Origin: Nitrosarchaeum sp. | GTDB lineage: Archaea > Thermoproteota > Nitrososphaeria > Nitrososphaerales > Nitrosopumilaceae | Length of the DNA: 64,000 nucleotides | Direction of reading: 5' to 3' | NCBI GenBank assembly: GCA_023265135.1 | Contig: JAHFUM010000007.1 | Coordinates: 1-64,000 of the forward strand | The notes under the pieces: model-generated | Told to the model about the DNA's origin: nothing | Databases searched by the model: none | Seen by the model: the letters and a program-made list of their open reading frames with translations, nothing else | Part shown: positions 1-19,259 of the stretch, piece by piece | How positions within the stretch are numbered: position 1 is the first letter of the stretch | How the letters are laid out: the number at the start of each line of letters is the position of its first letter | Position numbers and translations under genes: made by a program

Positions 1-1
1 T

Positions 2-1747: not shown

Positions 1748-1848
1748 AACATTCCATGCCTGTTATAAAAAAAGGACAATTTTTTTTATTGAATGTATGA
1801 AAAAATACTGAATAAGAGTTAAAAGGCTATTTTGGCAATTATATACAG

Positions 1849-3426: not shown

Positions 3427-4348
3427 AAAACTTACCACAAAAAAAACTAGAAAAAAATTCTCACGCTCAACTTCTGTAACTCGTCTTCATATTGTAGCAT
3501 ACTTTATGTTCAATGATTATGCAAAATCACTGTATCCAAAATTTACTACTCTGGAAACAACAATAAAACACTCAATGTCCGCTGTACCTTTTGAAGTGTA
3601 TGTGTGTACTATGCTCTTCCTTAGTCTTGTTTCAGGAATAGTAAGTAGCATGTTGACTTTTGTTGCAACTCAGGCAGCAGGTGTGAACATTATTGCCTCA
3701 ATAGTATTTACTTTATTGTTTGGAGTTGGTATAGCGGGAATGATTTTTGGAATTTTATACACCATTCCTGGTTTTATGGTAAAGACCAGAAGAATGAAAC
3801 TTCATGAGGAGCTACCTCACTTTATTGGATACATGTCAACATTGTCATCAAGCGGTCAAAGCATGGAAAATATCTTTAAGACAATTGCTTTAGAAGACAG
3901 CACCGAAGAAATTGTTAAAGATGCAAGATACATTGCAAGAAATATTGATATTTTTGGAATGGATGTACTTACTTCCATCAAAGAAGTCCTAAACAAAACT
4001 CCTGCTGGAGCATATCAAGAATTACTTGACGGTGCAGTCTCTACATTTGAGGCCGGTGGGGATTTAAAAGAATATTTTAATGCAATATCTAAAGTTCAGC
4101 TTGAAGAAAAGAAACTCAGTGTGAAAAAATCCATTGAATCACTTGGAGTGATATCCGAAATTTACACCGTTTTACTCGTAGTTTTTCCACTGTTGACTAT
4201 AATCATGTTATCTGTGATGGCAATAATGACTACAAATCTGATGGGTTTTGATCTTCCAACATTAATTGCTCTTGTTACTTTTGCAATTCTTCCACTTTGC
4301 GGTATTATGATGCTAGTATTGATGGATTCGATGACTCCAAAGAGGTAA
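3416..4348 (+). CDS. Type II/IV secretion membrane platform protein (GspF/TadC/FlaJ-like), first copy
   Basis: This polytopic membrane protein should form the inner platform on which the upstream ATPase acts. A hydrophobic block at residues about 60-120 is followed by a cytoplasmic GspF-like helical domain (about 130-240) and further transmembrane helices at about 253-305, which is the TadC/FlaJ layout. The start is TTG, inside the end of the ATPase gene. At 310 residues it is of usual length for a single-unit GspF protein. A second, different platform gene follows 5 nt after the stop. Confidence 0.88.
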   Translation: MLSKKLTTKKTRKKFSRSTSVTRLHIVAYFMFNDYAKSLYPKFTTLETTIKHSMSAVPFEVYVCTMLFLSLVSGIVSSMLTFVATQAAGVNIIASIVFTLLFGVGIAGMIFGILYTIPGFMVKTRRMKLHEELPHFIGYMSTLSSSGQSMENIFKTIALEDSTEEIVKDARYIARNIDIFGMDVLTSIKEVLNKTPAGAYQELLDGAVSTFEAGGDLKEYFNAISKVQLEEKKLSVKKSIESLGVISEIYTVLLVVFPLLTIIMLSVMAIMTTNLMGFDLPTLIALVTFAILPLCGIMMLVLMDSMTPKR

Positions 4349-4353
4349 ATAAA

Positions 4354-5265
4354 ATGTCAAAAAATACAGCAAAACTCAGAAAACGCGAGCCAAAAAAATC
4401 TACTGCCAAAGACAAAATGAAGTTGATAATAGTTATCTCCGTAGCTATTTCAATAGTAAGTGCAATTTTGACATTAATTTTAATTGACAGTTACGGATTA
4501 ACTAAATATAAAAATTTAGGACTAGTTGGCAGCTTATTAATCGGTGTTATTCCATTTACTATCTTTCAAATGAAAGAAATGAAAAGAAGAGATGGCATTG
4601 ATCAAAATCTGCCATTGTTTTTGCTGGCACTGTTAAGCTCAGTTAGAACAGGAATGGGCATTGAAGATTCAATCAGAACAGCGTCGGAAAGAAATTTAGG
4701 TGCACTTACAGTTGAGTTAAAAAATCTCAACGCCAATATTGGTTGGGGATTTCCTCTGATAGAATGCTTTAAGTTGTTTTCACAAAGATGTAATACCAAA
4801 ATTTCCAAAAGAGTCAGTATTCTTATAGAGATGTCAATACGAATAGGAGGAGACATTACTGAGAATCTTGAAATGATTCAACAACACGTATCAGAAATGA
4901 TAGAGCTTGAGAAAAATAGAAAATCCTCTCTTGCACCACACATGTATACAATATACATTTCATTTGTTGTGTTTTTGGCAATTGCATTATTGCTTACATC
5001 TAATTTTGTTCCTGAGATTGAGAAAGTAAAACTCCAATTTGCACAAAATGCTGAAACCAATGGTAATATGAACACACAGATGTTTGACTCGATTAAAAAT
5101 TTTGATCCACAACAACTCAAAACTATGATGTTCAATATGGCAGTAATTGAAGGAGTCTTTGGAGGTCTTGCAATAGGAAAAATAAGCTCTAGCTCTTATC
5201 TTGGTGGAATTAAACATATTGTGATAATGGTCACAATCAGCGTAGTCGCATTTACACTTATTTGA
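4354..5265 (+). CDS. Type II/IV secretion membrane platform protein (GspF/TadB-like), second copy
   Basis: This second platform protein has a basic N-terminus, two N-terminal transmembrane helices, a central helical domain with a GMGIEDSIR stretch typical of GspF-type domains, and C-terminal helices. I chose the ATG at 4354 because a purine-rich GAGGT lies just upstream and the previous gene stops at 4348; a longer frame open from 4297 would overlap it by about 50 nt. A TadB/TadC-like pair with one ATPase is typical of Tad-type pili and some archaeal pili. The stop at 5265 is followed by a hairpin. Confidence 0.85.
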   Translation: MSKNTAKLRKREPKKSTAKDKMKLIIVISVAISIVSAILTLILIDSYGLTKYKNLGLVGSLLIGVIPFTIFQMKEMKRRDGIDQNLPLFLLALLSSVRTGMGIEDSIRTASERNLGALTVELKNLNANIGWGFPLIECFKLFSQRCNTKISKRVSILIEMSIRIGGDITENLEMIQQHVSEMIELEKNRKSSLAPHMYTIYISFVVFLAIALLLTSNFVPEIEKVKLQFAQNAETNGNMNTQMFDSIKNFDPQQLKTMMFNMAVIEGVFGGLAIGKISSSSYLGGIKHIVIMVTISVVAFTLI

Positions 5266-5300
5266 TGCAAAAAAGTCAGCCCACCATTTTGACTACATTT

Positions 5301-5324
5301 GTACCCGAGAAAAAACTCAGGTAC
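5301..5324 (+). terminator. Hairpin downstream of the pilus operon
   Basis: Arms GTACCCGAG and CTCAGGTAC pair at 8 of 9 positions around an A6 loop, 36 nt after the last operon stop. It is followed by an AT-rich stretch but no long T run. It may be a transcript-end structure or a protein site; the role is inferred. The rest of 5266-5546 holds no gene I can support. Confidence 0.4.
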
Positions 5325-5546
5325 TAAAATTATTTGTGTTTGTGATATTCTTAGATTTGGTTGATTTGAAGGAGTCTAGATTACAAGCCTGTATTACTAT
5401 GAATGAGAAAAATTGAGCCTAAAGAAATCTATCCAAATTGAAAGCCACATACTGTGATACCGTGCATAAAAAATGTTGATTCATGTTAGTATTTCAAATA
5501 ACATACTTGTCTTTTAGTTATGATCCCTCAAATTGATGATATAGGC

Positions 5547-5633
5547 ATGAAAATAATCTCAGTCGACCTAGAAAGTTATACTCAGACAAATCACTCGCAT
5601 ATGGTCTTGTGGCAAACAAGGGAGAGAAAATAA
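5547..5633 (+). CDS. Possible 28-codon leader ORF before a TrmB gene
   Basis: An ATG opens a 28-codon frame that ends one nucleotide before the ATG of the TrmB-family gene. A purine-rich GGGAGAG near its end could serve as the ribosome site for the regulator. The peptide has no recognisable motif. It could be a leader peptide or chance; confidence is low. Confidence 0.2.
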   Translation: MKIISVDLESYTQTNHSHMVLWQTRERK

Positions 5634-5634
5634 A

Positions 5635-6480
5635 ATGATGTCATATCAAGAGCAAATTGGCGGTATATCCTCAGAATTAGAAGATATTCTAGGCCTTGAT
5701 GAATTGGAAGCCAAAGTGTATCTTAATCTATTACGAGTAGGTCCAATCACGGCAAGTGCACTAGCAAAAGAATTAGATACAGACAGAGCACGAATGTACA
5801 GAATAGTAGAGAAGCTAATCAGCAGAAATATTATTTCAACTACGCTTTCCAGTCCTAAATTATGTGTTGCAGCAGATCTAAAAGATATGCTAAAAGTAGC
5901 ACTGCAAAAAAAAGAGCATGAGGTAAACAGGATTAAAAAAGGCGGTGAGGCAATAATTGAAAAAATTAATAATGAAATTGTTACCAAACAAGGTCCAACT
6001 ATTCCCACATTCAGAATGGTTCAAGGAAGAACCAACATTTATGCAGATATTGCACAATTAATTGAAAATTCATCAGGTATAGTGTACATTTCAACAACAT
6101 TTGAAGACATAACTAGAATGTATCACAGTCAAATTCCAGAAAAGATCAAAATCTGTAAAAAGAAAGGTGGTGAAGTAAGACTGCTTGTTGAAATAGATGA
6201 TTCAAAATTAATTCCATTTATGAAAAAATTCAACGTATCTGAAACTAAAATTTGCAAACTTCCATCAAAGGGAAGAATGGTGGTTCAAAAAGATATGCAA
6301 ATGATAATGTCTGATTCTACCGCTGCAAATGTCATGTCTGCCAATTCCGAATCTGATTTTTCTTTGTGTACAAATTCATCAGAGATGACAAATAACATTC
6401 ATAGTCTTTGTAGTCTACTTTGGGAGACAGCTCAACCGTTATCCACATTGAATGTAAAAAAACATTCTAAAAATTCATAA
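5635..6480 (+). CDS. TrmB-family transcriptional regulator
   Basis: The N-terminal winged helix (residues about 15-85, with a GLDELEAKVYLNLL start and a recognition region around DTDRARMYRIVEKL) is the TrmB domain used by archaea to regulate metabolism. The middle residues look like a short coiled linker, and the C-terminal half resembles the TrmB effector or PLD-like regulatory domain. Length is 281 residues. The gene starts ATGATG; I take the first ATG. It stands alone between the pilus operon and a HEAT protein, so targets cannot be deduced. A second TrmB-type gene lies at 11.6 kb. Confidence 0.88.
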   Translation: MMSYQEQIGGISSELEDILGLDELEAKVYLNLLRVGPITASALAKELDTDRARMYRIVEKLISRNIISTTLSSPKLCVAADLKDMLKVALQKKEHEVNRIKKGGEAIIEKINNEIVTKQGPTIPTFRMVQGRTNIYADIAQLIENSSGIVYISTTFEDITRMYHSQIPEKIKICKKKGGEVRLLVEIDDSKLIPFMKKFNVSETKICKLPSKGRMVVQKDMQMIMSDSTAANVMSANSESDFSLCTNSSEMTNNIHSLCSLLWETAQPLSTLNVKKHSKNS

Positions 6481-6578
6481 TAGAAAAAATTTATTTTAAA
6501 AAGTCCTAACTTTAAATTAATTTTCCATGGTATAGAAATTTTTTTAGATATACAAATCAGGGAAAATAAAATAAATGA

Positions 6579-7076
6579 CTATAAAATCTCTGATGGATTA
6601 TAGTCGCCACGATTCTTTAGTCTTTCGAATCTCTTTAGAACAAATGCAGCAGTTTCTCTTACATCGCTACTAGGATCTTCTAGGGCTTTTTGAATCAGAG
6701 GTTCTGTTTCAAATGCTCGCATTAATCCAAGGGATTCAATTGCTTCATGTTTTGCCAGTATGCTTTTGTTGTGTAATGCTGTATTTACTAAAGTAGGGAT
6801 TTTATTTCGCATGTTTCTGGCAGCAACTTGAAAACATGCTTCATGTTTTACGACTCCATTATCATCATTATCTAAAATCCATCCAAGAACATCTGATACT
6901 TTTATGAACATTGGATCGTTATGATCTTTTTTTTCTGCCAATTCTCCAATTAGCCAAACTGCGTCCCAACGTTTTGATTCATCTTTTTCATTTTTCAATA
7001 TTTGCTCACATACTAAAAATCTCTCCTCAGGAGATAGAGCACGAATATCGTTTTCATCCAGTAATTGTATTCCCAT
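6579..7076 (-). CDS. HEAT-repeat protein
   Basis: The protein is built of short amphipathic helical repeats with conserved D-VRETAAFVL and HEAIESLGLM patterns, as in HEAT/PBS-lyase-type repeats used for protein contacts. I chose the ATG at 7076 (165 residues) because a TATA-like ATTTTTAAAAG lies about 25 nt upstream, the spacing of leaderless archaeal genes; an upstream extension to 7184 is open but lacks this support. Partner and function are unknown. Confidence 0.8.
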   Translation of the reverse strand: MGIQLLDENDIRALSPEERFLVCEQILKNEKDESKRWDAVWLIGELAEKKDHNDPMFIKVSDVLGWILDNDDNGVVKHEACFQVAARNMRNKIPTLVNTALHNKSILAKHEAIESLGLMRAFETEPLIQKALEDPSSDVRETAAFVLKRFERLKNRGDYNPSEIL

Positions 7077-7301
7077 TATACAATTTGGAAATGAGATTAC
7101 TTTTAAAAATATCGTTTCACTCATTCTAAGAAAGAAAGCAATAGGCTCAACATCCAATTTCCAAAAATAGGAATTTTGGCTCAACTGCTCTTTAATTTTA
7201 AAACATGAAATACTCCCTCAATTGGGGTTGTTCTACCAAATGAATTAAGGCATATTTTTGAAAAATATTTGGGTTTAAAAAATTAAATTAATTTAAAAAT
7301 T

Positions 7302-7775
7302 CTAGTGTAATTTACGCAATAGGTATGGTGTAAGTAGTGGTTTAAGTTTTATTTGATGCTCCTTATTCAGATGTTTGAATCCTTTGACAATTCCAATGCA
7401 ATTTTTTTCACCACAAAAACACTGAAATGCTTCATTTTTTATTGCTAAATCATATTCAGTTGTAACATAACTAAATGTAATTTCATCACCTGGTTTGATC
7501 GCTCGTATGGAAAAACATCCCATCTTGTCAAAATCAATTCTAACATTTGGCATACAGCTATGATTTAAAAAATCTCTTATCTGTGTTGGTTCCGAATCCA
7601 AAAATGTGTCCTCATCAATTTGCAGTGCCGTAATGGATGCTGTAGAATTAGGTCTAATTGTAACGCCTTGATCAAACTTTAACACCATTTCTCCTTTTTT
7701 CATATGTTTTTTAGAAACCAATCCTTTTCCTTTATTTGGAATATTTGCTAATTTTACATAGGTTGGAATTTTCAT
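7302..7775 (-). CDS. SET-domain protein (putative protein lysine methyltransferase)
   Basis: SET-domain proteins transfer a methyl group from S-adenosylmethionine to lysine. This compact 157-residue protein has the NKGKGLVS start of the fold, the NHSCMPN motif near residue 71, GDEITFSY near residue 95 and a post-SET-like Cys cluster CFCGEKNC near 120. All signature motifs are intact, so activity is plausible. The start is ATG, with a TATA-like stretch about 28 nt upstream. The neighbours give no hint of the substrate; chromatin proteins such as Alba are possible targets by analogy only. Confidence 0.88.
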   Translation of the reverse strand: MKIPTYVKLANIPNKGKGLVSKKHMKKGEMVLKFDQGVTIRPNSTASITALQIDEDTFLDSEPTQIRDFLNHSCMPNVRIDFDKMGCFSIRAIKPGDEITFSYVTTEYDLAIKNEAFQCFCGEKNCIGIVKGFKHLNKEHQIKLKPLLTPYLLRKLH

Positions 7776-7854
7776 CTAAATACATGAAATATTGATAGTA
7801 TATATTTTTAGAGAAAAGACAAACTTAAGAACATATTACTATCTATAGTTTATA

Positions 7855-8634
7855 GTGAAAACGCCTGAAGTAGTTCCAGAGAAATTTGACTCTCCAATTG
7901 ATTATAAAATTTTATTTCTAATTATATTCTCTTCAATTGTATTTCAATTTTTATTAAATGTTTTATTTCCTTCAGATGATCGAGATTTTATTGTCTCAAT
8001 AGTTTCTGTTATCAACCCACTAGCAGCTTCACTTGCAGGGTTTCTTGTTACATTAAGATACCGAGGTTCACTAGTATTTGGGAAATCATATTTAATGTTA
8101 AGTCTAGGATTTTTTTGTGCATTTTTGGGTGAACTTACATACTTAATTTACGATTTAGTTCTGAATATCGAACCATATCCTTCAATTGCTGATGTATTCT
8201 TTTTTGCTTATTCTCCATTTTTAATTGCACATTTAATAATAAATATTAGATTTTTTCAGCCTACAACAAAACTTGTTACCAAAGTCTGGGTTTCAATTAT
8301 TCCGATAGGCATTGTTTTTGCATATATCTGGTTCTCATTACATGAGATTGGTGAAGTAAATTTTGATTTTTATTATGGGACCATTTTTGTGGCAGCAACT
8401 TCTGTAGCATTAACACTTACCATTCTAGGTACTAGAATATTCAAAGAAGGCATCTTAGGTAAATCCTGGCTAATCCTCCTTTTTGGGATTTTATCTTTGA
8501 CAATTGCTGATGACGTGTATTATTATTTAGAGATTCCAGGAAATTATGATCTTACTCATCCAATAAACATTCTTTGGTATGCCGGGTATTGGATAGTATT
8601 TTATGCATTACTCAAACACAAAGAATCTATTTAA
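7855..8634 (+). CDS. Polytopic membrane protein of unknown function
   Basis: The 259-residue protein has about seven to eight hydrophobic helices with short loops and no soluble domain. The pattern resembles the seven-helix membrane sensor modules found at the N-terminus of some archaeal histidine kinases, but no kinase follows. The start is GTG at 7855. It is divergently transcribed from the SET gene, with 79 nt between them that must hold both promoters. I do not recognise a transport signature. Confidence 0.65.
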   Translation: MKTPEVVPEKFDSPIDYKILFLIIFSSIVFQFLLNVLFPSDDRDFIVSIVSVINPLAASLAGFLVTLRYRGSLVFGKSYLMLSLGFFCAFLGELTYLIYDLVLNIEPYPSIADVFFFAYSPFLIAHLIINIRFFQPTTKLVTKVWVSIIPIGIVFAYIWFSLHEIGEVNFDFYYGTIFVAATSVALTLTILGTRIFKEGILGKSWLILLFGILSLTIADDVYYYLEIPGNYDLTHPINILWYAGYWIVFYALLKHKESI

Positions 8635-8844
8635 ATTCATAAATAATGTGTTAAAAATTAAATCAAAAGTAAAGATTCAGAAAACAAAAGGTATTTGAAT
8701 TTTAATAGAATGAAAATAAAATCATGTTGTTTGTTGATCTACAAAATCAATTAAAAATCAATCCAACATGTTATGCAAAATCATCAATTTCAAAAATGAG
8801 GAGAAAATTACTTCAAATTTGAAATAAGTTAAATGATTTTATAA

Positions 8845-9459
8845 TTAAACGCGGACAATTTGAAGTATGGAGCTTTGAACCATAGAGTTTTCTTTTAATT
8901 GAATTTTTACTGCCACTTTATTTTTCTCTATATCCATTTTCACGTTGTTAAATGCAGTTTCGTATTTCTTTATATTTTTACCATCGGCAGCTGTTTCACA
9001 ATCATTTGAAATTAGCAATCCGCTTTCTACCATCTGATTTATTTTTCTATAACCTGAAGTTTGCGGTACTTTACATTGTTCCAAAATATCGGAGATGCTA
9101 AGTGACTTTTCCATGACCGTTCCAATTATTGCTTTTTTATCTTCGTCAGCAAATGACTCTAGAAATGTTTTGGCTAACTCTTGATCCTGAACTGTGACCC
9201 AGTTGTCAGCTGATTTCTTGTGTTGTTTAAGATCAATTATGTTTTGTAGGAATTTAGCCTCCAATCCATCTGCACCAGCTCCAAAAAATTCTCTTAGTAC
9301 ACTATCAAATTTGTAAAAATCTTTTATTGCCTCTCCAATACCCATACCGTGTCTCTCCATTAATCTTTGTTCAATTTTATTTAAAGTGGATTTACCTAGA
9401 TTTACCTCTATAGACTTACGTAAAGATGGTGCAAGTAAGTTATCCAAACTGTTTTCCAT
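8845..9459 (-). CDS. Winged-helix transcriptional regulator, thaumarchaeal type
   Basis: The N-terminal half is helical and without a recognised motif; the C-terminal half (residues about 100-165) has an ArsR-like helix-turn-helix, with SISDILEQCKVPQTSGYRKI as first and recognition helices. The start is ATG at 9459. A perfect inverted repeat overlaps the TATA region just upstream, which suggests autoregulation. The upstream divergent region to 9764 contains no gene. Confidence 0.75.
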   Translation of the reverse strand: MENSLDNLLAPSLRKSIEVNLGKSTLNKIEQRLMERHGMGIGEAIKDFYKFDSVLREFFGAGADGLEAKFLQNIIDLKQHKKSADNWVTVQDQELAKTFLESFADEDKKAIIGTVMEKSLSISDILEQCKVPQTSGYRKINQMVESGLLISNDCETAADGKNIKKYETAFNNVKMDIEKNKVAVKIQLKENSMVQSSILQIVRV

Positions 9460-9477
9460 TGTTGAATTTTAGGGATA

Positions 9478-9494
9478 ATTAGTATTAAACTAAT
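9478..9494. promoter_or_regulatory. Inverted repeat over the core promoter of the HTH gene
   Basis: ATTAGT and ACTAAT form a perfect 6-bp inverted repeat with a 5-nt spacer. Its centre is about 27 nt before the ATG at 9459, where the TATA box of a leaderless gene should be. This is a candidate operator for the regulator encoded downstream. Confidence 0.45.
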
Positions 9495-9764
9495 TGTGTG
9501 TTATTACTGAAATAACAGAATTGTATAATTTTAAAAGTACCTTTTTTATCTGGAATTGTTCTCAAAAACATGTCATCTTGAATAATTTTTTAGATTAAAA
9601 AACATAATCCCGCATGAATTATTACATTTCACTACAATTACATACATTGTAGCTATTTCAGGAGTTTTGTATAAACAGTGTGTGTTAATTTGAACAACAT
9701 AATCTATATCTACAAAAATGGGAATAAGAGTACGTTAGAAAAATGAATAATACGCATACAGGAA

Positions 9765-10334
9765 ATGAGGTTGGTTGATTTGACATTACAAGAAAGTAGA
9801 ATTCTTAAGAAAACAGATAATGTTTCAATAAGAATTGATTCTGATTTGAGCAATAAATTACACGAAAAATGTATTGAGCAAAAAATTAGTCTTAATACTT
9901 TGATCAATCATCTATTGGAAAAACAGATTAACTGGAACGAGTTGACTGCTGAAATGGGATGGATATCTATGTTTAGATCTACATTTCGTGAATTGATGGA
10001 TTCAAATTCTAAAGAAAAGATACAAAAAATTGCAGAAACTACAGGTGCAATTGATCTTAAAAATTCACTGAATTATTTTTATGGCTATGTCGATTTGGAT
10101 TCAATTTTAGATCTTTTCAAGAAAAGATGTCAAGATATGAATGTGCAATTCAGATTGATTCCAGTAAAAAATACAATGCGAATTGTGATTCACCATGATC
10201 TTGGTAAAAACTGGCCTTTTTTCCTAATTACCCAAATGAATTCCATACTAAATGAAGTTGGGTATAGAACCATAAATGAGGATTATAACAATCTAGGATT
10301 CTCATTTGAAATTATTAAGGTAGGTGATGTATAG
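9765..10334 (+). CDS. Ribbon-helix-helix-like putative DNA-binding protein
   Basis: Residues about 18-55 (NVSIRIDSDLSNKLHEKC followed by SLNTLINHLLEKQ) match the strand-helix-helix pattern of Arc/MetJ-type repressors. The rest, about 130 residues, is a mixed alpha/beta region that I do not recognise and that may be a ligand or dimerisation domain. Length is 189 residues with an ATG start. The stop is 76 nt before an EamA transporter on the same strand, so control of that gene is possible but not shown. Confidence 0.65.
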   Translation: MRLVDLTLQESRILKKTDNVSIRIDSDLSNKLHEKCIEQKISLNTLINHLLEKQINWNELTAEMGWISMFRSTFRELMDSNSKEKIQKIAETTGAIDLKNSLNYFYGYVDLDSILDLFKKRCQDMNVQFRLIPVKNTMRIVIHHDLGKNWPFFLITQMNSILNEVGYRTINEDYNNLGFSFEIIKVGDV

Positions 10335-10410
10335 AAAGACAGGCTCAACTATAGTCAAATATTTAAGACAAATTAAAGAATATTATTAAAGGACGAACTC
10401 ATTTCCAAAA

Positions 10411-11559
10411 ATGGGAATGAGTGCGCTAGACCTTGTCAAGAAACCCAGTTTTGGATATTACTTTATAATATTAGCTGCAGCATTAGCGGCATTAATTCAC
10501 GTTATTTGCAAACCAATGTTGGACGGCGGAAACGGTCAAGCTGAGATTAATCCAATTGTAATGGCATTTTTGATTTATTTTATCTCTGGCATATTTATTA
10601 CACCATTGGCAAGAAAATCTTCTATAATTTCCAAAATTGGAAGAAAGGATGTAATGTTTATGGCATTAATTGGAATAGCCGAAGGTGCTGGTCTAATCGC
10701 ATATTTTTATGGAATCAGCGCAACCACTGCAGTAAAAGCATCAATATTTAGCAACAGTGAAATTATTTTTGCGCTCGTTATTGCAATGCTGATTTTTAAG
10801 GAAAGACTGCACATCAAAGAATGCATACCTTTCTCTATGATAATCATAGGCATGATGGTCATTCCTATAGGAAATGATCTTTATCAAAACAATTTTAGCT
10901 TTGGAAATATTGTAACTGGTGATTTAATGATCGTTTTTTCAGGGTTGTTATACGCTATAGACATCACATTATGTAAATATCTAGGAAACAAATTTGATGT
11001 GAAAAAGACAGTACAAATAATATCCTTTATCTGTGCTGCTATTACAATTTCAATTATTGCGTTATTTCAAATTCCAATGAATATAGAGTTATCACAATTG
11101 CCAAATATTTTGGTCATGTCCATACTTGGCACTGGAATGTCTACTTTGTTTTTCTTAATGGGGTTAAAACTCATTGGAGCAGTAAGAACTGTACTGTTGT
11201 TTTCAACTTCATCTATATTTGGAATATTGTTTTCAGGATTGATTCTTTCTGAACCTATAACTCCAGTAGACATATTTTCATCTATGTTGGTTTTTGCAGG
11301 CATATTTTTACTTAGAAATAAACTTGCAGGAACAGAAGAAAATGTCATTGAAACTGAAATTATCCGTAAAACAAATACCTCGTATGTAGTTTTAGCCAAA
11401 AAAATTAACCTATTACCACATTCAATCGTATTAGGCACGCAGCAAAAAATCAAAAACATTCTATTTCCAAATAACATCGATAATTTAGAGCCTAAAAGGC
11501 ACAATTACCATAATGTGGAATTAAGACCGTCAAATAAGCCAATTTTAATAAATATTTAA
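10411..11559 (+). CDS. EamA/DMT-family membrane transporter
   Basis: The first 305 residues contain about ten hydrophobic helices in two EamA halves, the layout of drug/metabolite or nucleotide-sugar exporters. The second half includes the typical GTGMSTLFFLMGLKLIGA and FSTSSIFGILFSGL patterns. A basic tail of about 75 residues follows in the cytoplasm, longer than usual for the family. The start is ATG at 10411. The substrate cannot be told from sequence. Confidence 0.82.
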   Translation: MGMSALDLVKKPSFGYYFIILAAALAALIHVICKPMLDGGNGQAEINPIVMAFLIYFISGIFITPLARKSSIISKIGRKDVMFMALIGIAEGAGLIAYFYGISATTAVKASIFSNSEIIFALVIAMLIFKERLHIKECIPFSMIIIGMMVIPIGNDLYQNNFSFGNIVTGDLMIVFSGLLYAIDITLCKYLGNKFDVKKTVQIISFICAAITISIIALFQIPMNIELSQLPNILVMSILGTGMSTLFFLMGLKLIGAVRTVLLFSTSSIFGILFSGLILSEPITPVDIFSSMLVFAGIFLLRNKLAGTEENVIETEIIRKTNTSYVVLAKKINLLPHSIVLGTQQKIKNILFPNNIDNLEPKRHNYHNVELRPSNKPILINI

Positions 11560-11604
11560 AAAAATAGGCACGAAAAAAATCAAAAAACTAAAAAATTTTC
11601 CAGT

Positions 11605-11616
11605 TGTACGCATTTG
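11605..11616. repeat. 12-bp direct repeat, left copy, before a TrmB gene
   Basis: TGTACGCATTTG occurs here and again at 12523-12534, immediately after the TrmB-family gene, in the same orientation. It may be a binding site at both ends of the gene or a scar; no transposase lies between the copies. Confidence 0.4.
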
Positions 11617-11633
11617 TAACTATATGTTTACAA
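11614..11633. promoter_or_regulatory. Inverted repeat upstream of a TrmB gene
   Basis: TTGTAA and TTACAA form a perfect inverted repeat around the 8-nt spacer CTATATGT, which holds a TATA-like core. It ends 5 nt before the GTG start. TrmB-type proteins bind palindromes near promoters, so autoregulation is a reasonable inference. Confidence 0.4.
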
Positions 11634-11637
11634 TTAC

Positions 11638-12519
11638 GTGATCAGAGTTATTAGTCAAAAACCGATATTTCCATTAATGGAAACTGAATCAAGTATGTTG
11701 CAATTAGGTAATTTTCCTGTTGATAAAGTAAATTATGATGAGATAAAGGACTATTTTGCAACGTTTGGATTAACACCAAACCAGGTAAAGGTATTTGTTT
11801 ACCTTGGGAAAACAGGTCCGAGACTAGCATCCGATATTGCAAAAGCAGTGGACATTCCACGAAGCGAAACATATCATTTGTTAACAGCTCTTCAAAACAA
11901 AGGTATAGTTTCTGCAACATTTGATCATCCTATTAAATTTTCAATAATTCCAATTCAAGAGGCAATTCATGTTTTAGTGAGTACTGAAACAGAGCGTCTA
12001 AAGAAATTAAAAAAATCTGGACCTCTTTTAGAAGAGATATGGGAAAAAATTCCTGGATTTGCTAGTGAATCAAACGATGAACAAGAAGAGAAATTTCAAG
12101 TGTTACAGGGTGGAAATCAAGTAAACAGTAAAATCTTTGATATGATATTGAATGCAAAAACTGAATGCAGAATACTTGGTTCTGAAAAAGACATGATGAA
12201 ATTTTACCATGCTAATTTCTTTGAAGCCTTGGAAGAACGCGCAATTGATTACAAGATATTATCTCCTGTTTCGAAAAAATCTAAATACATTTTCGAGAAT
12301 TTGGATAGTACAAAAATTAAAAAATTATGTCCTGCTGTAAAAGGCAACCTTTGTTTTTTGATTAAAGATGACGATGAAGTACTCCTTTTTATAAAAAACT
12401 CTAATGGAAATAATAAAGAAATGAGAGCCATCTGCACTAATTCAGAAACAATAATTTATTCAAAATCTCTATTGTTTGATAATTATTGGTCAAATGAAGC
12501 AGTTGCAGACTCAAATTAA
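11638..12519 (+). CDS. TrmB-family transcriptional regulator
   Basis: The winged-helix TrmB domain occupies residues about 33-105 (FATFGLTPNQVKVFVYL then DIPRSETYHLLTALQNKGI). The C-terminal half resembles the TrmB sensor region. Start choice is uncertain: GTG at 11638 gives 293 residues, but the TATA-like core at 11620-11626 would put transcription start near 11648, which favours the ATG at 11677 (280 residues). It is related in layout to the regulator at 5.6 kb. Confidence 0.85.
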   Translation: MIRVISQKPIFPLMETESSMLQLGNFPVDKVNYDEIKDYFATFGLTPNQVKVFVYLGKTGPRLASDIAKAVDIPRSETYHLLTALQNKGIVSATFDHPIKFSIIPIQEAIHVLVSTETERLKKLKKSGPLLEEIWEKIPGFASESNDEQEEKFQVLQGGNQVNSKIFDMILNAKTECRILGSEKDMMKFYHANFFEALEERAIDYKILSPVSKKSKYIFENLDSTKIKKLCPAVKGNLCFLIKDDDEVLLFIKNSNGNNKEMRAICTNSETIIYSKSLLFDNYWSNEAVADSN

Positions 12520-12522
12520 CTC

Positions 12523-12534
12523 TGTACGCATTTG
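12523..12534. repeat. 12-bp direct repeat, right copy, after a TrmB gene
   Basis: This is the exact second copy of TGTACGCATTTG, starting 4 nt after the TrmB stop codon. Confidence 0.4.
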
Positions 12535-12624
12535 AAATCATAGAAATATTCTGTTTTTACTAATCATTTGTTAAATTACACATGATCTCAGAGCAGAATG
12601 TTTGATTGAATACAAAAATAACTG

Positions 12625-13026
12625 TCAAATTAGTGATTCGTCACTTACTTCAATTGGCTTTCTACCCATAAATCCAGACTCTTTTTCATGCCAGAATTTA
12701 ATTTCTGTCTCACCATATTTCCAACAAAGCCAAACTTCTTCATCAAATCTCTTTGATGGAAAATCAAGCAATCCCTGTTCTATGCTTTTAACTACTACTC
12801 CTGTGTTTTCAAGCACTTCTACAGATTCGTAAAACTTTGTTATTGCGGAATTGAGTTTTTGTTTGAGGGAAACATATTCTTCAAAGGTGTTTGTAGTAGC
12901 AAGACTCATCTGAAGTTCTTGTTCTAGTTTGGCGATATCATTTTTTTTTGCCATCGCAAATTCAAATTTTTTTATTACATCAGGTAATGCCGTATTTGCT
13001 TGATTTTTGGTAAAATATGAAAACAT
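12625..13026 (-). CDS. DUF2203-family protein
   Basis: The 133-residue protein starts FTKNQANTALPDV, has a central coiled-coil-forming helix and ends with GVVVKSIEQGLLDFPSKR followed by EVWLCWKYGE. That order is characteristic of the DUF2203 family found in archaea and some bacteria. The molecular function is not known. It is divergently arranged with a small conserved gene at 13098. Confidence 0.8.
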   Translation of the reverse strand: MFSYFTKNQANTALPDVIKKFEFAMAKKNDIAKLEQELQMSLATTNTFEEYVSLKQKLNSAITKFYESVEVLENTGVVVKSIEQGLLDFPSKRFDEEVWLCWKYGETEIKFWHEKESGFMGRKPIEVSDESLI

Positions 13027-13097
13027 GTCCTAATCACAATGTCCTTGATTAAATATCTTAGGCGCAGATTTATTAGCAATAATTTTACTGTCAAATT

Positions 13098-13376
13098 ATG
13101 AATGAAGACCAAATGGAGATGGTAATTACTCAAACTATCAATGGTGCAGTTTTAACAATTCCATCTTATCTAGAAGACATAAGACAGAATAAAGAAGCAC
13201 TCAAAGTTGAGAATCCACAAGAATTTGTCTACGGAATGATCATGGGAATGGCATTAGGTATGAGTGGTGCGCTGCTAAGTGCACAAGAAGAAATGCCTAC
13301 GGCAGAAGAACAAATCAAAGTACGAGATATCATATACAAGTATATTCCAGAAATTAGAGAACAAATCTATAGTTGA
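13098..13376 (+). CDS. Small conserved protein of unknown function
   Basis: This 92-residue acidic protein is mostly helical with a Met/Gly-rich centre (YGMIMGMALGMSGALLSAQ) and no recognised motif. Its stop overlaps the TTG start of the next gene (shared TTGA), so the two are probably translated together. The partner is a flavin-type oxidase fold, but no function can be assigned from that. Confidence 0.65.
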   Translation: MNEDQMEMVITQTINGAVLTIPSYLEDIRQNKEALKVENPQEFVYGMIMGMALGMSGALLSAQEEMPTAEEQIKVRDIIYKYIPEIREQIYS

Positions 13377-13771
13377 TAAAATTTAACCAATCTGAAAAAG
13401 AATTTCTTGAATCCTTGGAGGAAGCAAGAATTGCAACATCTCATGCAGACATACCACATGTAAAGCCGGTGTCATTTATTTATTGTAATGATATTATTTT
13501 TATTGCAACAGATTATCACACCAGGACATTTAAAAATATCAAAATAAATCCAAAGGCAAGTATCACAATAGATGTTTATGAGCCTGGAAAACACAAAGCT
13601 GTCTGTATTCAAGGAAAAGTAGAAATTTTAGAAAAGGGGCAGGAATTTTTAGACATATACAAAATGTTTGAAAAAAAATTTGCCTGGGTAAGAAATGAGC
13701 CGTGGAAAGAAAACGAAGCACCATTTCTCAAAATTATTGCCACAAGCAAAACAAGTTGGGGTTTAAAATAA
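13373..13771 (+). CDS. Pyridoxamine 5'-phosphate oxidase-like, FMN-binding split-barrel protein
   Basis: The 132-residue protein shows the split-barrel pattern: an N-terminal helix, PHVKPVSFIYCNDIIFIAT, the TFKNIKINPKASITID strand-helix-strand, and AVCIQGKVEIL. Such proteins bind FMN or F420 and reduce small substrates or heme; the substrate here is unknown. The TTG start overlaps the previous stop. It is a single-domain member of normal length. Confidence 0.82.
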   Translation: MIKFNQSEKEFLESLEEARIATSHADIPHVKPVSFIYCNDIIFIATDYHTRTFKNIKINPKASITIDVYEPGKHKAVCIQGKVEILEKGQEFLDIYKMFEKKFAWVRNEPWKENEAPFLKIIATSKTSWGLK

Positions 13772-13807
13772 GACATTATGCAAATTTAAAAATATAAAAG
13801 AATGAAC

Positions 13808-14170
13808 TTAGGATGTAAGATTGGGTTCTAATTGGGATAAAAGATTTTGAATTGAAATAGGTTTTTGCAGTATAGAGTCTACTCCTAAGTCTCTGAGAAA
13901 TTTAATTTGATACTCGTCTAGTTCCGGTGAATCTACAACAGTAATTTTTTGAATGTTTGTATGCCTTTTCTTTAAATCCAAAAGAAAATCAATTCCACTG
14001 TAATTAGGCATAACCAAATCAATCAAAATTAAATCATAATAATTATTTTGAATCATAACGAGAGCTTTTTTGCCATCCATTACACTTTCAAAATCATGAT
14101 TTTTTGTTTTTAAAATATTTGAAAATTTTTTAATTGTTTCAGAATAATTACCAATATGGAGTATCTTCAC
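13808..14170 (-). CDS. Degenerate response-regulator receiver protein
   Basis: This stand-alone 120-residue receiver keeps the phospho-acceptor Asp region LILIDLVMP (near residue 53) and the Lys in ILQKP near the end. The N-terminal acidic pair that normally binds magnesium is missing: the strand reads ILHIGNYSE. Phosphorylation may therefore be weak or lost. The start is GTG. A decayed copy of its N-terminal third lies at 15378-15488 and still has Asp at the position that is Gly here. No histidine kinase is adjacent. Confidence 0.82.
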   Translation of the reverse strand: MKILHIGNYSETIKKFSNILKTKNHDFESVMDGKKALVMIQNNYYDLILIDLVMPNYSGIDFLLDLKKRHTNIQKITVVDSPELDEYQIKFLRDLGVDSILQKPISIQNLLSQLEPNLTS

Positions 14171-14267
14171 AATAATAAATCGTCATGTATATTCATAGAG
14201 TTTAGTTTGTGCAATTGTACAAACTATTTTAATTCAAAAACATGAATTTAGTTTAGGCTCAATTAAT

Positions 14268-14501
14268 TTACGAATAGTTTTCAGATAGTTTACGAATGTG
14301 GCTGGTGTCTTTTTTATACGCCAAATCCAACGCTCTTTGTATCTCATCGAGGTTCTTTTTTGTGTTTGTTTGATTTTCTTTGACTATTTTACAATCCTGA
14401 ATTACTGGCAATTCGCAAAAATTTTGATATTGTTCATAAGTTACTACACAATAATGAATTTTTGGATCATCTTCAAACTTGTATTGGATTTTAAATGGCA
14501 T
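14268..14501 (-). CDS. Small conserved protein of unknown function
   Basis: The 77-residue protein begins with a beta-rich half (KIQYKFEDDP, IHYCVVTYEQYQNF) and ends with a charged helix (LDEIQRALDLAYKK). The start is ATG. The last eleven codons recur in decayed form at 15590-15622, inside the duplicated block. No family is recognised. Confidence 0.6.
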   Translation of the reverse strand: MPFKIQYKFEDDPKIHYCVVTYEQYQNFCELPVIQDCKIVKENQTNTKKNLDEIQRALDLAYKKDTSHIRKLSENYS

Positions 14502-14711
14502 GTTTGATTTGAATATTTTAGAATTTATAACTTTTAGGTAAATTTACACTACCTGAAACTAGAAAAATACTGTATTATGGGTTAAGATATCAATTACTAT
14601 TTTTTTGATCAGGCTGACTTTACAAGTGAAACCCGTATGACATTTTAGCCTCCGCCTAAGTTTTGTTCATTTGTAAACTTAATAATCATAATTTATTGGA
14701 TATATTATAAA

Positions 14712-15332
14712 ATGAACATACTTCGAAAAACGAAGAACAGAAAAGCAGTATCCCCAATTATTGCTACTCTATTGCTAGTAGCTATTGCTGTAGTGGGCGG
14801 TGCATTGATTTTTTCATTCGCACAAGGTTATTTTACCAGCTCACAAACAAGCGGTAGACCAAACATAGAGCAGTACAAAATTAGCGGATATGACGCAAGC
14901 GATACCGGCCTTCTCAAATTACATGATGGCAATACAATGACTACAACTGCATTCACAAACAGTGGTACAGCTGGTCTAAAAGCCAATGATGTAATATCTG
15001 TCTATGTCGAGAATAAGAGCGCTCAAAAGATCACAATAACTGATCTATTGTTTGGTGGCACCAAGTATACCTATCTAAAAGGTACTGGAACCACTGCAAT
15101 CGCAGCACTTGTAAACCCTGCAACTAGCGGTCAATTTGCATTAGTAACTGACGCAACAACAGAGTTTTCATCTGCAGCAACTGGCGCAGAATTCCAACCA
15201 GGACAATCAGGTACACTAGTACTCAAACTGACAGAAGACATCAAAGACGGACGAGATGTACAACTAAGACTCGCAACCGGTAACGGTAATGTTTTAGTAG
15301 GAACCATCATCGCTGGACAACAAGAGGGTTAA
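14712..15332 (+). CDS. Type IV pilin, copy 1
   Basis: This 206-residue protein has a class III signal peptide: a basic leader MNILRKTKNRKA followed by VSPIIATLLLVAIAVVGGAL, the hydrophobic assembly helix of archaeal pilins (Pilin_N type), cleaved by an archaeal prepilin peptidase. The mature domain is beta-rich with Thr/Ser/Gly. It should form an adhesion pilus or filament at the cell surface, possibly assembled by a machine like the one at 1.8-5.3 kb. It differs from copy 2 at three residues near the C-terminus only. Confidence 0.92.
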   Translation: MNILRKTKNRKAVSPIIATLLLVAIAVVGGALIFSFAQGYFTSSQTSGRPNIEQYKISGYDASDTGLLKLHDGNTMTTTAFTNSGTAGLKANDVISVYVENKSAQKITITDLLFGGTKYTYLKGTGTTAIAALVNPATSGQFALVTDATTEFSSAATGAEFQPGQSGTLVLKLTEDIKDGRDVQLRLATGNGNVLVGTIIAGQQEG

Positions 15333-15377
15333 TCCTTTTTTTCTTTTTTATTTTGGTAAAATGAAAATATATCGCAT

Positions 15378-15488
15378 TCATGACTTTTTGTCATCCATAG
15401 TACTTTTAAAATCCTGATTTTTTGTTTTTAAAATACTTAAAAATGCCTCAATAATTTCAGAATTATTGTCAATATGGATTATCTTCAC
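15378..15488 (-). pseudogene. Fossil of the receiver gene (N-terminal 36 codons)
   Basis: The frame starts with GTG like the intact gene and reads VKIIHIDNNSEII, parallel to MKILHIGNYSETI of the gene at 13808-14170. Similarity continues through the ILKTKN region to MDDKKS, then a TGA ends it at the duplication junction. The frame has stayed open despite many substitutions. It retains Asp at residue 7 where the intact gene has Gly. Confidence 0.75.
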
Positions 15489-15589
15489 AATAATGAAAAG
15501 ACATGAATATTCATAGAGATTATTTTTTACAATTGCACAAATTAAAAATTTAATTTAAAAATATGGAATTTTAGCCCAGACTCAATTTA

Positions 15590-15622
15590 TCAAGAATAGT
15601 TTTCAGACCGTTTGTGAATGTG
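15590..15622 (-). pseudogene. Fossil of the C-terminus of the 77-residue gene
   Basis: The reverse strand reads HIHKRSENYS and a stop, matching HIRKLSENYS at the end of the gene at 14268-14501. Upstream sequence of that gene is missing here. This marks the deletion inside the second duplication copy. Confidence 0.65.
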
Positions 15623-15761
15623 AGTAAAAAAACAATTACCCCTTGTTTTTTGATTTGGTTAATTTGATGAGCAAAATTAAGATGACATTTTAGCCTCAAT
15701 CTTTGATTTTGTTCATTTAAACAAACTAAATAATAATAACACATTCCATTAAAAAAACACA

Positions 15762-16382
15762 ATGAACATACTTCGAAAAACGAAGAACAGAAAAGCAGTA
15801 TCCCCAATTATTGCTACTCTATTGCTAGTAGCTATTGCTGTAGTGGGCGGTGCATTGATTTTTTCATTCGCACAAGGTTATTTTACCAGCTCACAAACAA
15901 GCGGTAGACCAAACATAGAGCAGTACAAAATTAGCGGATATGACGCAAGCGATACCGGCCTTCTCAAATTACATGATGGCAATACAATGACTACAACTGC
16001 ATTCACAAACAGTGGTACAGCTGGTCTAAAAGCCAATGATGTAATATCTGTCTATGTCGAGAATAAGAGCGCTCAAAAGATCACAATAACTGATCTATTG
16101 TTTGGTGGCACCAAGTATACCTATCTAAAAGGTACTGGAACCACTGCAATCGCAGCACTTGTAAACCCTGCAACTAGCGGTCAATTTGCATTAGTAACTG
16201 ACGCAACAACAGAGTTTTCATCTGCAGCAACTGGCGCAGAATTCCAACCAGGACAATCAGGTACACTAGTACTCAAACTGACAGAAGACATCAAAGACGG
16301 ACGAGATGTACAACTGAAACTAACAACCGGTAACGGTAATGTTTTAGTAGGAACACTCATCGCTGGACAACAAGAGGGTTAA
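15762..16382 (+). CDS. Type IV pilin, copy 2
   Basis: Same architecture as copy 1: class III signal peptide, assembly helix and beta-rich domain, 206 residues. The DNA is identical to copy 1 from the ATG for about 550 nt; six nucleotide differences all fall in the last 70 nt and change R to K, A to T and I to L. The promoter region differs from copy 1, so the two copies may be expressed differently. The stop is 30 nt before a large membrane-anchored surface protein, with which it is probably co-transcribed. Confidence 0.92.
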   Translation: MNILRKTKNRKAVSPIIATLLLVAIAVVGGALIFSFAQGYFTSSQTSGRPNIEQYKISGYDASDTGLLKLHDGNTMTTTAFTNSGTAGLKANDVISVYVENKSAQKITITDLLFGGTKYTYLKGTGTTAIAALVNPATSGQFALVTDATTEFSSAATGAEFQPGQSGTLVLKLTEDIKDGRDVQLKLTTGNGNVLVGTLIAGQQEG

Positions 16383-16412
16383 TAACCCCCTTTCCTTTTT
16401 ATTTTGATTAAA

Positions 16413-19259
16413 ATGAAAGCAAAAATAATTCCAATTGTAATCACCATAATACTACTTTCATCTGTAATTGTCATTCCATTTCAATCATCATATGCGTTTG
16501 ACCTTGCCGGACTTGACTTGAATCTTACAATAACTCCCTCAAAAATTGAATCAGGAAAAGCAGAGCACAAAATAGGCTATGTCTCTTTAACTCACAAAGG
16601 AATCTTAGTTAATCAAAAAGAAGATGCTGAAATCAAACTATCTTCGGATTATCCAAACATTGTATCTGTCCCAGAATCAATCATCATTGAAAAAGGCTCC
16701 AGTTATACACAATTTTCTATCAAGACAACAGATGAAATTGGAGAATCTACAATTTCTGCAACTGTAAATAATCTTATTTCAAGTCAGAAAGTTACAATTG
16801 GAAGCAGTAATTCATATCTGCCTGACAACCTCTCATTGAATCTTTCTTTACCAAGTGAAAACATGCACATTGATTCAGATATGCCTTTTACAGTATTTCT
16901 AAAGACTCCAGATGGCGCCATAGTCAGGGCTCCGAGAGATATTGATATTAGATTAGAATATGATAAAAATAATGCATTCCCTACAAATGACACACTAACA
17001 ATCAAAAAAGATACTTACTATGCATGGGGTGTGTTGCATTCTGGAAATAATCCAGGCAGTGCATATTTGAGAGCCATTCAAGATGAACTTGATCTTGATG
17101 CTGCAAAAAGCATTCGACTTACATCAACATTACCTACCGCACTTCAAATTAATGTATTTCCAAAACTTATATCTGAAGATATTGGAAGAGACGTAAATGC
17201 GTTTGTAAGTCTGCTTGATGCAAATGGAAATCCAACTGTGGCTCCAAATGATATTCCACTAGAGTTTTTTGTAGACAGCCGTAATCGAGTAAGTGAGGCA
17301 ATAGATACATTTTCAAAAACATCTCACCCTGTAATTAAAAAAGGTGAGTTTGGATATCTTTTCAAACAAAAGTTAGATGTGATTGGAACTGAAGTACCTG
17401 TCAAATATACTATTGGAGTAAGTGCTAAAGGTTATGGAATTGCAACAGATTATTTTAAATTTGCAAAACAAATACTTACTTTTAAAACAATTGAAAAATT
17501 CAACAACCAAATTAGCAAAATTGATCTTACAGACACAACCGAGGACCAAGTAAAAATAAATTATCCATATGTAGTTGTTATGTTTGGACCTGATAAAATT
17601 CCCCCAAACTCCGATTCTGTAATTGGTTATCAGATTGGAGTTTTAGAAGATAATGATGATGATGATAATACTCTATATCCAGGTCATAGTACCAATTATG
17701 AGGTAGAAACTGATCCATCCGTATGTGATGAAACTAGAACAAACGAAGATATCCTTTCTGGCAATTCTGACTCTACAAATACCGATAACACAAGTACTAG
17801 CAATACAAACAGTAATACCAATAGCGATACTACAAACCAGGATCAAGCTAAATGTGAAATACCAATTCCTACTATAGATTATCTCCCCGACAAATATTTT
17901 TATCCTATTCAGGCAAATGAACATTCTAATTCTGATGGAACGTTTTTTGAAAAAACAGCTCTGTATTCTTCTGACAAAAACCTTGTATCAATAGTTGATG
18001 CAGGGATACTTCCAAGCACTCAATCAAATGGATTTGGAATAATTCACAGTGGATCGTATTCTGGAACTGGAAATGTTTCTGCTACCATAAGTGGAGTAGG
18101 TTCTCAATCAGTTTCAACTACTGTGATAAACTCACTTGAACAAAAAGAGACAAGAATGTTCTCTCCTGTGGGCGATGATATATTATTGACAACTTCTGAT
18201 GGATACTTTGACGTTTTTCTTGTAGCAATTGATCAAAGTGACAGACCAAAAAAACAGTTTGATGATACCCAATATCTTGTATCTCCTACAAATTCTATTG
18301 TAGAAATTAAAAAAGATCAAACATTTAGTCTTGCAAAAATTAGAGGAGAAGATTTCAGTAACATGACTAATACTGAAACTACCACTACAAAAAATAAATC
18401 TGACAATGATCAATTCCTTAAAGAAACAAAATTCGAAGTAACTCAAGTAGGAAGTGGATCAATCAAAGAACTTGATACTAAAAAAACATTCAAGATTCAA
18501 CCATCCGCATCAATTCAAATAACTTTGCCAAATCCATTAATTGGAGCAAAAACCAGTGGTAACTTGGGAGTAGTGCAACTAGTAGATCTTCAAGGCAATC
18601 CTATAGTTGCAACAAAAAATATGCCCACTAAGATCTTATCATCTGATGGTGCAGTTTTAAGAATATTGGATTCACCAACAATTCCAAAAGGATACTCATA
18701 CGCTTACTTTGATATTGAAGCATTAGACAAACTGGGAACAAGCACACTGACTGCAAGTGCTAGAGGAATTACACCTTCAACACTTGAAGTAAATACACAT
18801 CCAACATCATCAAATCTTGTAGTATCTGTAGGTGATCTTCCGGAATCTCTAAAGATTGGTGAACCATCTGAAATTACAGTATATGTGGATGATTCTAACC
18901 AAAATTCTGTATCTGATGTTAGAGTAATGGCATCAAGCAATGATATGGTGGAATTTGAGGCAAAAGAAATTGTTACTGGAGATGACGGCAGCGCCAAACT
19001 AAAAATTACTGTAACTGGAGGAACTCAGGTAGAAATCACACTTGACGCATCAAAGAAAGATTACTCTGATGCCACAAAGAGTTTCTTTTTGGATGCAAGC
19101 CCTGCCGCTGGAAGCAATTCTCTTCTTTCTGGCTTTGCATTTGGTCCTTGGATGATATATGTAGCAATTGCCGCTGTAGTAATTATTGGTATTTTTGTAG
19201 CCCTATTTTTCAGAAAGACAAAAGAAATTGAAGAATGGGATGAAGAAGATGAGATTTAA
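16413..19259 (+). CDS. Large exported, C-terminally membrane-anchored surface protein
   Basis: The 948-residue protein starts with a signal peptide (MKAKIIPIVITIILLSSVIV) ending near SYAF. The body consists of beta-rich, Ig/invasin-like segments, interrupted near residues 440-480 by an Asp/Asn/Ser/Thr linker. A transmembrane helix near residue 912 (MIYVAIAAVVIIGIFVALFF) is followed by a short acidic tail facing the cytoplasm. I chose the ATG at 16413 over an upstream TTG. The 30-nt spacing from pilin 2 suggests a pilus-associated adhesin or anchor; this is inference. Confidence 0.8.
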   Translation: MKAKIIPIVITIILLSSVIVIPFQSSYAFDLAGLDLNLTITPSKIESGKAEHKIGYVSLTHKGILVNQKEDAEIKLSSDYPNIVSVPESIIIEKGSSYTQFSIKTTDEIGESTISATVNNLISSQKVTIGSSNSYLPDNLSLNLSLPSENMHIDSDMPFTVFLKTPDGAIVRAPRDIDIRLEYDKNNAFPTNDTLTIKKDTYYAWGVLHSGNNPGSAYLRAIQDELDLDAAKSIRLTSTLPTALQINVFPKLISEDIGRDVNAFVSLLDANGNPTVAPNDIPLEFFVDSRNRVSEAIDTFSKTSHPVIKKGEFGYLFKQKLDVIGTEVPVKYTIGVSAKGYGIATDYFKFAKQILTFKTIEKFNNQISKIDLTDTTEDQVKINYPYVVVMFGPDKIPPNSDSVIGYQIGVLEDNDDDDNTLYPGHSTNYEVETDPSVCDETRTNEDILSGNSDSTNTDNTSTSNTNSNTNSDTTNQDQAKCEIPIPTIDYLPDKYFYPIQANEHSNSDGTFFEKTALYSSDKNLVSIVDAGILPSTQSNGFGIIHSGSYSGTGNVSATISGVGSQSVSTTVINSLEQKETRMFSPVGDDILLTTSDGYFDVFLVAIDQSDRPKKQFDDTQYLVSPTNSIVEIKKDQTFSLAKIRGEDFSNMTNTETTTTKNKSDNDQFLKETKFEVTQVGSGSIKELDTKKTFKIQPSASIQITLPNPLIGAKTSGNLGVVQLVDLQGNPIVATKNMPTKILSSDGAVLRILDSPTIPKGYSYAYFDIEALDKLGTSTLTASARGITPSTLEVNTHPTSSNLVVSVGDLPESLKIGEPSEITVYVDDSNQNSVSDVRVMASSNDMVEFEAKEIVTGDDGSAKLKITVTGGTQVEITLDASKKDYSDATKSFFLDASPAAGSNSLLSGFAFGPWMIYVAIAAVVIIGIFVALFFRKTKEIEEWDEEDEI

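Follow-up and report, generated by a model that had tools for sequence, protein, structure and literature searches.

In the genome of Nitrosarchaeum sp. (assembly GCA_023265135.1) two tandem pilin genes, here called A and B, lie within the 64,000 nucleotides of contig JAHFUM010000007.1 that we analysed (the window), and they raise the question of how two neighbouring genes can be identical over most of their length while the sequences that surround them, products of the same duplication, have diverged. A sequence-only reading of this locus had proposed recent gene conversion between the copies. This proposal is supported by the contrast between flank and gene body and by the mosaic structure of B, which a third copy, pilin C, made visible; as judged from these comparisons, a recent conversion of B by A would very probably be the best explanation of the pattern. 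The features concerned are collected in Table 1.

Table 1. Features of the pilin duplication and of the surrounding pilus locus (window coordinates)
Feature	Positions	Strand	Remarks
Pilus assembly ATPase (T2SSE)	1849-3426	+	PF00437
Two TadC-like platform proteins (T2SSF)	3416-5265 (3416-4348, 4297-5265)	+	PF00482
Intact response regulator	13808-14170	-	PF00072; 5' part included in duplication
5' flank of A unit	14067-14300	.	homologous to 15385-15622; 79% over 239 columns
NitrOD1 ORF, 77 aa	14268-14501	-	PF18549; mostly deleted in B unit (alignment)
Upstream (promoter) region of A	14601-14711	+	conserved blocks ATGACATTTTAGCCTC and TTTTGTTCATTT in common with B
Identity tract, A side	14711-15265	+	555 nt
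Pilin A	14712-15332	+	ORF; 206 aa archaeal type IV pilin; likely donor of converted tract
Decayed 5' flank of B unit	15385-15622	.	homologous to 14067-14300
Response-regulator remnant (gene start)	15385-15488	-	34 in-frame codons, no stop
Upstream (promoter) region of B	15646-15761	+	diverged from upstream region of A
Identity tract, B side	15761-16315	+	555 nt
Pilin B	15762-16382	+	ORF; 206 aa; apparent mosaic, A-type nt 1-554, C-type nt 541-621
Putative unconverted 3' end of B	16316-16382	+	equals pilin C (B=C nt 541-621); six sites unlike A
Large secreted Ig-like protein gene	16404-19259	+	downstream of B; conserved partner of pilin

Both ORFs are intact and 621 nt long. The products of A and B matched PF07790 with 31.3 and 31.7 bits, respectively (cut-off 25.2), and A also matched TIGR02537 with 42.2 bits (cut-off 20); we assign them to the archaeal type IV pilins, which makes them filament subunits by prediction. 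The earlier description of an identity of about 550 nt from the ATG that included synonymous sites, with six differences all in the last 70 nt, proved accurate: there was no mismatch at nt 1-554 and none at the 136 synonymous sites of this body, and the six mismatches were located at nt 555, 557, 561, 562, 594 and 595. Three of them are synonymous and three non-synonymous (R186K, A188T and I199L), and the probability that all six would fall by chance inside the last 67 nt of the gene is 1.3e-6. The dS between A and B was 0 over codons 1-184 and 0.19 beyond. At the other end, the unbroken match between the two copies extends by a single base beyond the ATG in the upstream direction.

The flanks behaved differently. 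A BLAST alignment of 14067-14300 with 15385-15622 showed 79% identity over 239 columns, which ruled out that the flanks are unrelated sequences and identified them as diverged parts of the same duplication; 18-21% of the sites mismatched in the homologous flanks. When the segment 14067-14226 was compared with 15385-15544, 29 of the 160 sites differed, against 0 of 554 in the body of the pilins and 6 of 67 in their tail (body vs. flank, Fisher P = 2e-20). The same difference was evident in the count that the sequence-only reading had called for, synonymous sites of the body vs. sites of the flank (0/136 vs. 29/160, P = 6e-9). The large deletion that had been claimed together with the diverged flanks was also found, as about 300 bp are gone from the B unit, including most of the NitrOD1 ORF; the codons of the B-side remnant resemble the start of the intact response regulator. 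On the 3' side, 28 columns of the flanks of A and B align, up to the start of the Ig-like gene.

Pilin C was found by a search of the whole genome. It is split between two contigs, C12 and C18, whose ends overlap by 120 nt, and once pieced together over this overlap it reads as a full ORF. Contig C12 has a further overlap with the contig that contains the window, at the left end of the latter. By this chain of overlaps C maps to the minus strand at approximately -4802 to -4182 (window coordinates), about 19 kb left of A and inverted relative to A and B. Pilin C has only its ORF in common with the other two copies, and not the flanks. Protein and DNA searches of the same genome returned no copies beyond A, B and C, a hidden copy being possible in contig C24, whose 2525 bases are N throughout. 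In a phylogenetic tree the three pilins grouped together in a single clade, which had 100% support and a long branch.

The break between C12 and C18 lies one base before a cluster of variants that distinguish C from A and B (nt 172-174). It may correspond to a branch of the assembly graph originating from a further recombinant, or to an ordinary assembly break. We dropped the idea that it is a sign of a mixed population, since contig-end overlaps of 119-121 nt, with one partner each, are frequent in this assembly.

Aligning the three copies yielded 43 variable sites that fall into two unbroken blocks, an arrangement expected by chance with a probability of about 6e-6. At the first 37 sites (nt 1-540) A equals B and C differs; at the last six (nt 555-595) B equals C and A differs; and at none of the 43 does B have a difference of its own. 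Moreover, A and C diverge evenly over the length of the gene (37/540 vs. 6/81, P = 0.82), whereas B and C do not (37/540 vs. 0/81, P = 0.009), which points to B as the recombinant. From this alignment, B appears to combine an A-type with a C-type gene at a single junction, which lies within the 14 bp of nt 541-554. Pilin C also provided a measure of how freely synonymous sites change in this gene: dS between A and C was about 0.16 throughout, and 0.16 over codons 1-184 vs. 0 for A and B (about 20 of 136 synonymous sites against 0 of 136, P = 9e-7), so synonymous change is free in this pilin. Two marks of gene conversion, a sharp-ended tract of identity amid diverged homologous surroundings, and an identity that extends to synonymous sites free to vary, are both present at this locus.

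The history that we propose would start with the tandem duplication of a unit comprising the start of the response regulator, NitrOD1, the pilin together with its promoter, and the initial bases of the Ig-like gene. The units would then have drifted apart, the flanks by about 20% and the pilins by about 7-9% (dS about 0.16-0.19), before a recent non-reciprocal homologous exchange, carried out presumably by enzymes of the archaeal RadA recombination pathway, allowed A to overwrite B from approximately the start codon to nt 541-554. Under this mechanism B would have kept the diverged promoter that it already had, as well as its final 70-80 nt, where it matches C, and the tract would end just upstream of the ATG, where the homology between A and B falls. 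The six mismatches between A and B would then be the unconverted end of B, where B equals C. The promoter and tail of B are homologous to those of A yet distinct from them, which indicates that a pilin was present at that place before the tract arrived. In the genus and the family the large Ig-like gene is normally preceded immediately by a single pilin, and this conserved adjacency implies that B occupies the ancestral place relative to that gene and that A is the extra copy.

With respect to the direction of the exchange, transfer from A to B is the one that we consider probable, with reservations. The simplest history would be that B was formerly C-like, so that C presumably resembles B before conversion, and was overwritten by A; the mosaic structure of B and the even divergence between A and C favour A as the unchanged donor in a non-reciprocal transfer. 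A conversion of A by B accompanied by a separate exchange between B and C is possible, and would need a second exchange ending within the same 14 bp. As for the tail, the residues K186 and T188 of B and C (two of the three differences) are those common in orthologues; therefore, A is probably the copy that changed at these sites. A few hidden differences between A and B, or polymorphism in the sampled population, may exist, as the data come from one draft genome of one strain.

Exchange with crossing over, instead of conversion, could also be invoked, the mosaic being then the product of an unequal exchange between A and B together with an inversion between C and the A/B pair. The inverted position of C some 19 kb away agrees with this, and so does the order of the genes between C and A/B, which is rearranged with respect to seven relatives. 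In three of these (G001, G015 and G017) the locus reads UbiA-Ig-pilin-four pilus genes and continues with the divergent ATPase-TadC-TadC as far as PNPOx; in genomes that have kept the regulators, a response regulator, NitrOD1, a second regulator and a Hef-type helicase come next. The other four (G002, G029, G031 and G091) have the same order with some losses. In the genome studied here the helicase is followed by C, the second regulator, the four pilus genes and ATPase-TadC-TadC; after these come the first regulator, NitrOD1, A, B, Ig and UbiA. One breakpoint falls between NitrOD1 and the ATG of pilin A, in the 5' flank of this gene, but the other lies between RR2 and NitrOD1, more than 1 kb from C, and at least two inversions would be required to reach the present order. 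Furthermore, an unequal exchange giving a gene with the head of A and the tail of B in a two-copy array loses one copy, and a later re-duplication would yield identical flanks, while the actual ones differ. We consequently regard crossing over as improbable. The role of C and A/B as substrates of the inversion of the locus was likewise reduced to a possibility because of the distance between that second breakpoint and C. As an observation of its own, the rearranged pilus locus (about -4802 to -4182 and 1-19259) carries pilins near both ends, in inverted orientation.

An assembly artefact has a somewhat smaller chance of accounting for the identity of A and B than crossing over. According to this explanation, the assembler merged two similar gene bodies and wrote one sequence twice, so that the genes in the cells differ. 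The assembly is indeed in draft state, with 25 contigs, and contig ends share 119-121 nt with one another, as happens in short-read de Bruijn assemblies. However, pilin C, which is 6-7% different from A and B, was assembled separately, and bodies of A and B as different as their tails should have been too. Moreover, if the body had been merged, the assembled path would be the sole linear route through both unique flanks and tails. A similar pattern is also present in G089, a genome in a single contig. Even less probable is a second recent duplication in which the pilin ORF of A alone was copied into the older, decayed duplicate site: the identity between A and B does begin 1 nt before the ATG, and C likewise resembles A and B in the ORF and not in the flanks, but the diverged homologous promoter and the C-like tail of B indicate that a pilin was already in place, and replacing the body of a resident pilin is gene conversion under another name. 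Finally, that A and B are held equal by strong selection, at the nucleotide or the protein level, with no exchange has a negligible probability. Pilins are abundant, repetitive structural proteins whose N-terminal part is conserved across the family, but C departs from A and B over codons 1-184 at about 20 synonymous sites and 18 non-synonymous ones (dS 0.16), which rules out synonymous constraint as the cause, protein identity among orthologues is only about 50%, and the six mismatches are crowded at the end of the gene.

Conversion of B by A thus being the preferred reading, other genomes of the family give indications of comparable events. A single-sequence scan of genome contigs with pilin A recovered no relative, while an alignment-based scan did match records; more than one pilin copy is present in 7 of the 53 family genomes that have this pilin. 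In G089 (L079:14475-16517) the tandem pilins share 245 identical nt, 47 upstream and 198 coding (dS 0), followed by a strongly diverged middle (dS 0.41) and by a block of 100 nt in the 3' flank that is identical again; this pattern could result from homogenised ends or from the import of a divergent middle. G026 harbors three dispersed pilins (L072, L073 and L074) that are 90-95% identical, one of which alternates between the other two as a mosaic (runs, P = 2e-4). What the pilins of G026 have in common is the ORF, about 70 nt before it and about 11 nt after it, and no more of the flanks, as if the pilin were a cassette-like unit. Recent copies clustered by genome in the genome studied here (G000), in G026 and in G089, a grouping that recent duplication alone would also give. 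In G041 and G042 the older paralogues clustered across both genomes, each species being represented by one genome in this comparison, and exchange therefore seems confined to recent, similar copies.

Gene conversion in archaea has been documented for genes of methanogens (PMC4632066, PMC6053082), and tandem duplication of archaeal pilins was already known (PMC4858521). The tandem mtrA copies of methanogens (PMC4632066) are also archaeal paralogues in which one part is similar and others have diverged; however, there the conversion was recurrent over very long times and across species, whereas here we observe what appears to be one recent tract, in the pilins of an ammonia-oxidising archaeon, with donor, recipient and third copy still visible. 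Likewise, in the long-lasting concerted evolution described for prokaryotes (PMC6053082) paralogues are closer within a genome than to their orthologues, but the event described here is recent and comes from a single genome. That report lists a tandem flagellin pair in Alteromonadales, and its seven archaeal genes are all from methanogens, none being a pilin. Among the titles and abstracts listed we found no report of gene conversion in archaeal pilins or archaellins, which is weak evidence given that few subscription papers were covered. In the antigenic variation of Neisseria pilE/pilS (e.g. PMC4877100) tracts of type IV pilins are also exchanged by homologous recombination, and there, as in A and B, the differences lie towards the 3' end. 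In contrast to Neisseria, A and B are both complete ORFs preceded by promoter-like blocks, the protein and DNA searches of this genome found only A, B and C and no silent partial donor cassettes, and the effect at A/B is homogenisation instead of switching.

The locus offers a clear and fresh example of a known process, and an unusually clean natural record of it in a non-methanogenic archaeon, in which donor, recipient and third copy are all preserved and the junction can be located to within 14 bp. Together with the comparable patterns of G026 and G089, it suggests that the pilins of these abundant nitrifiers evolve in part through recombination among copies, and trees or dates derived from such pilins would mislead. 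A switching role for the pilins is possible. It seems unlikely, on present indications, that the three pilins, two direct and one inverted and flanking the apparatus, act as a recombining set whose exchanges reshuffle pilins, invert the segment of the apparatus and give surface variation. Nevertheless, the locus raises the question of whether surface filaments vary through such exchange in environmental archaea.

In G026, G089, G214, G216, G222, G231 and G018 the pilin, the Ig-like gene or both were found flipped or displaced with respect to the four pilus genes. Because these changes recur in several genera, the neighbourhood of the pilin is prone to rearrangement.
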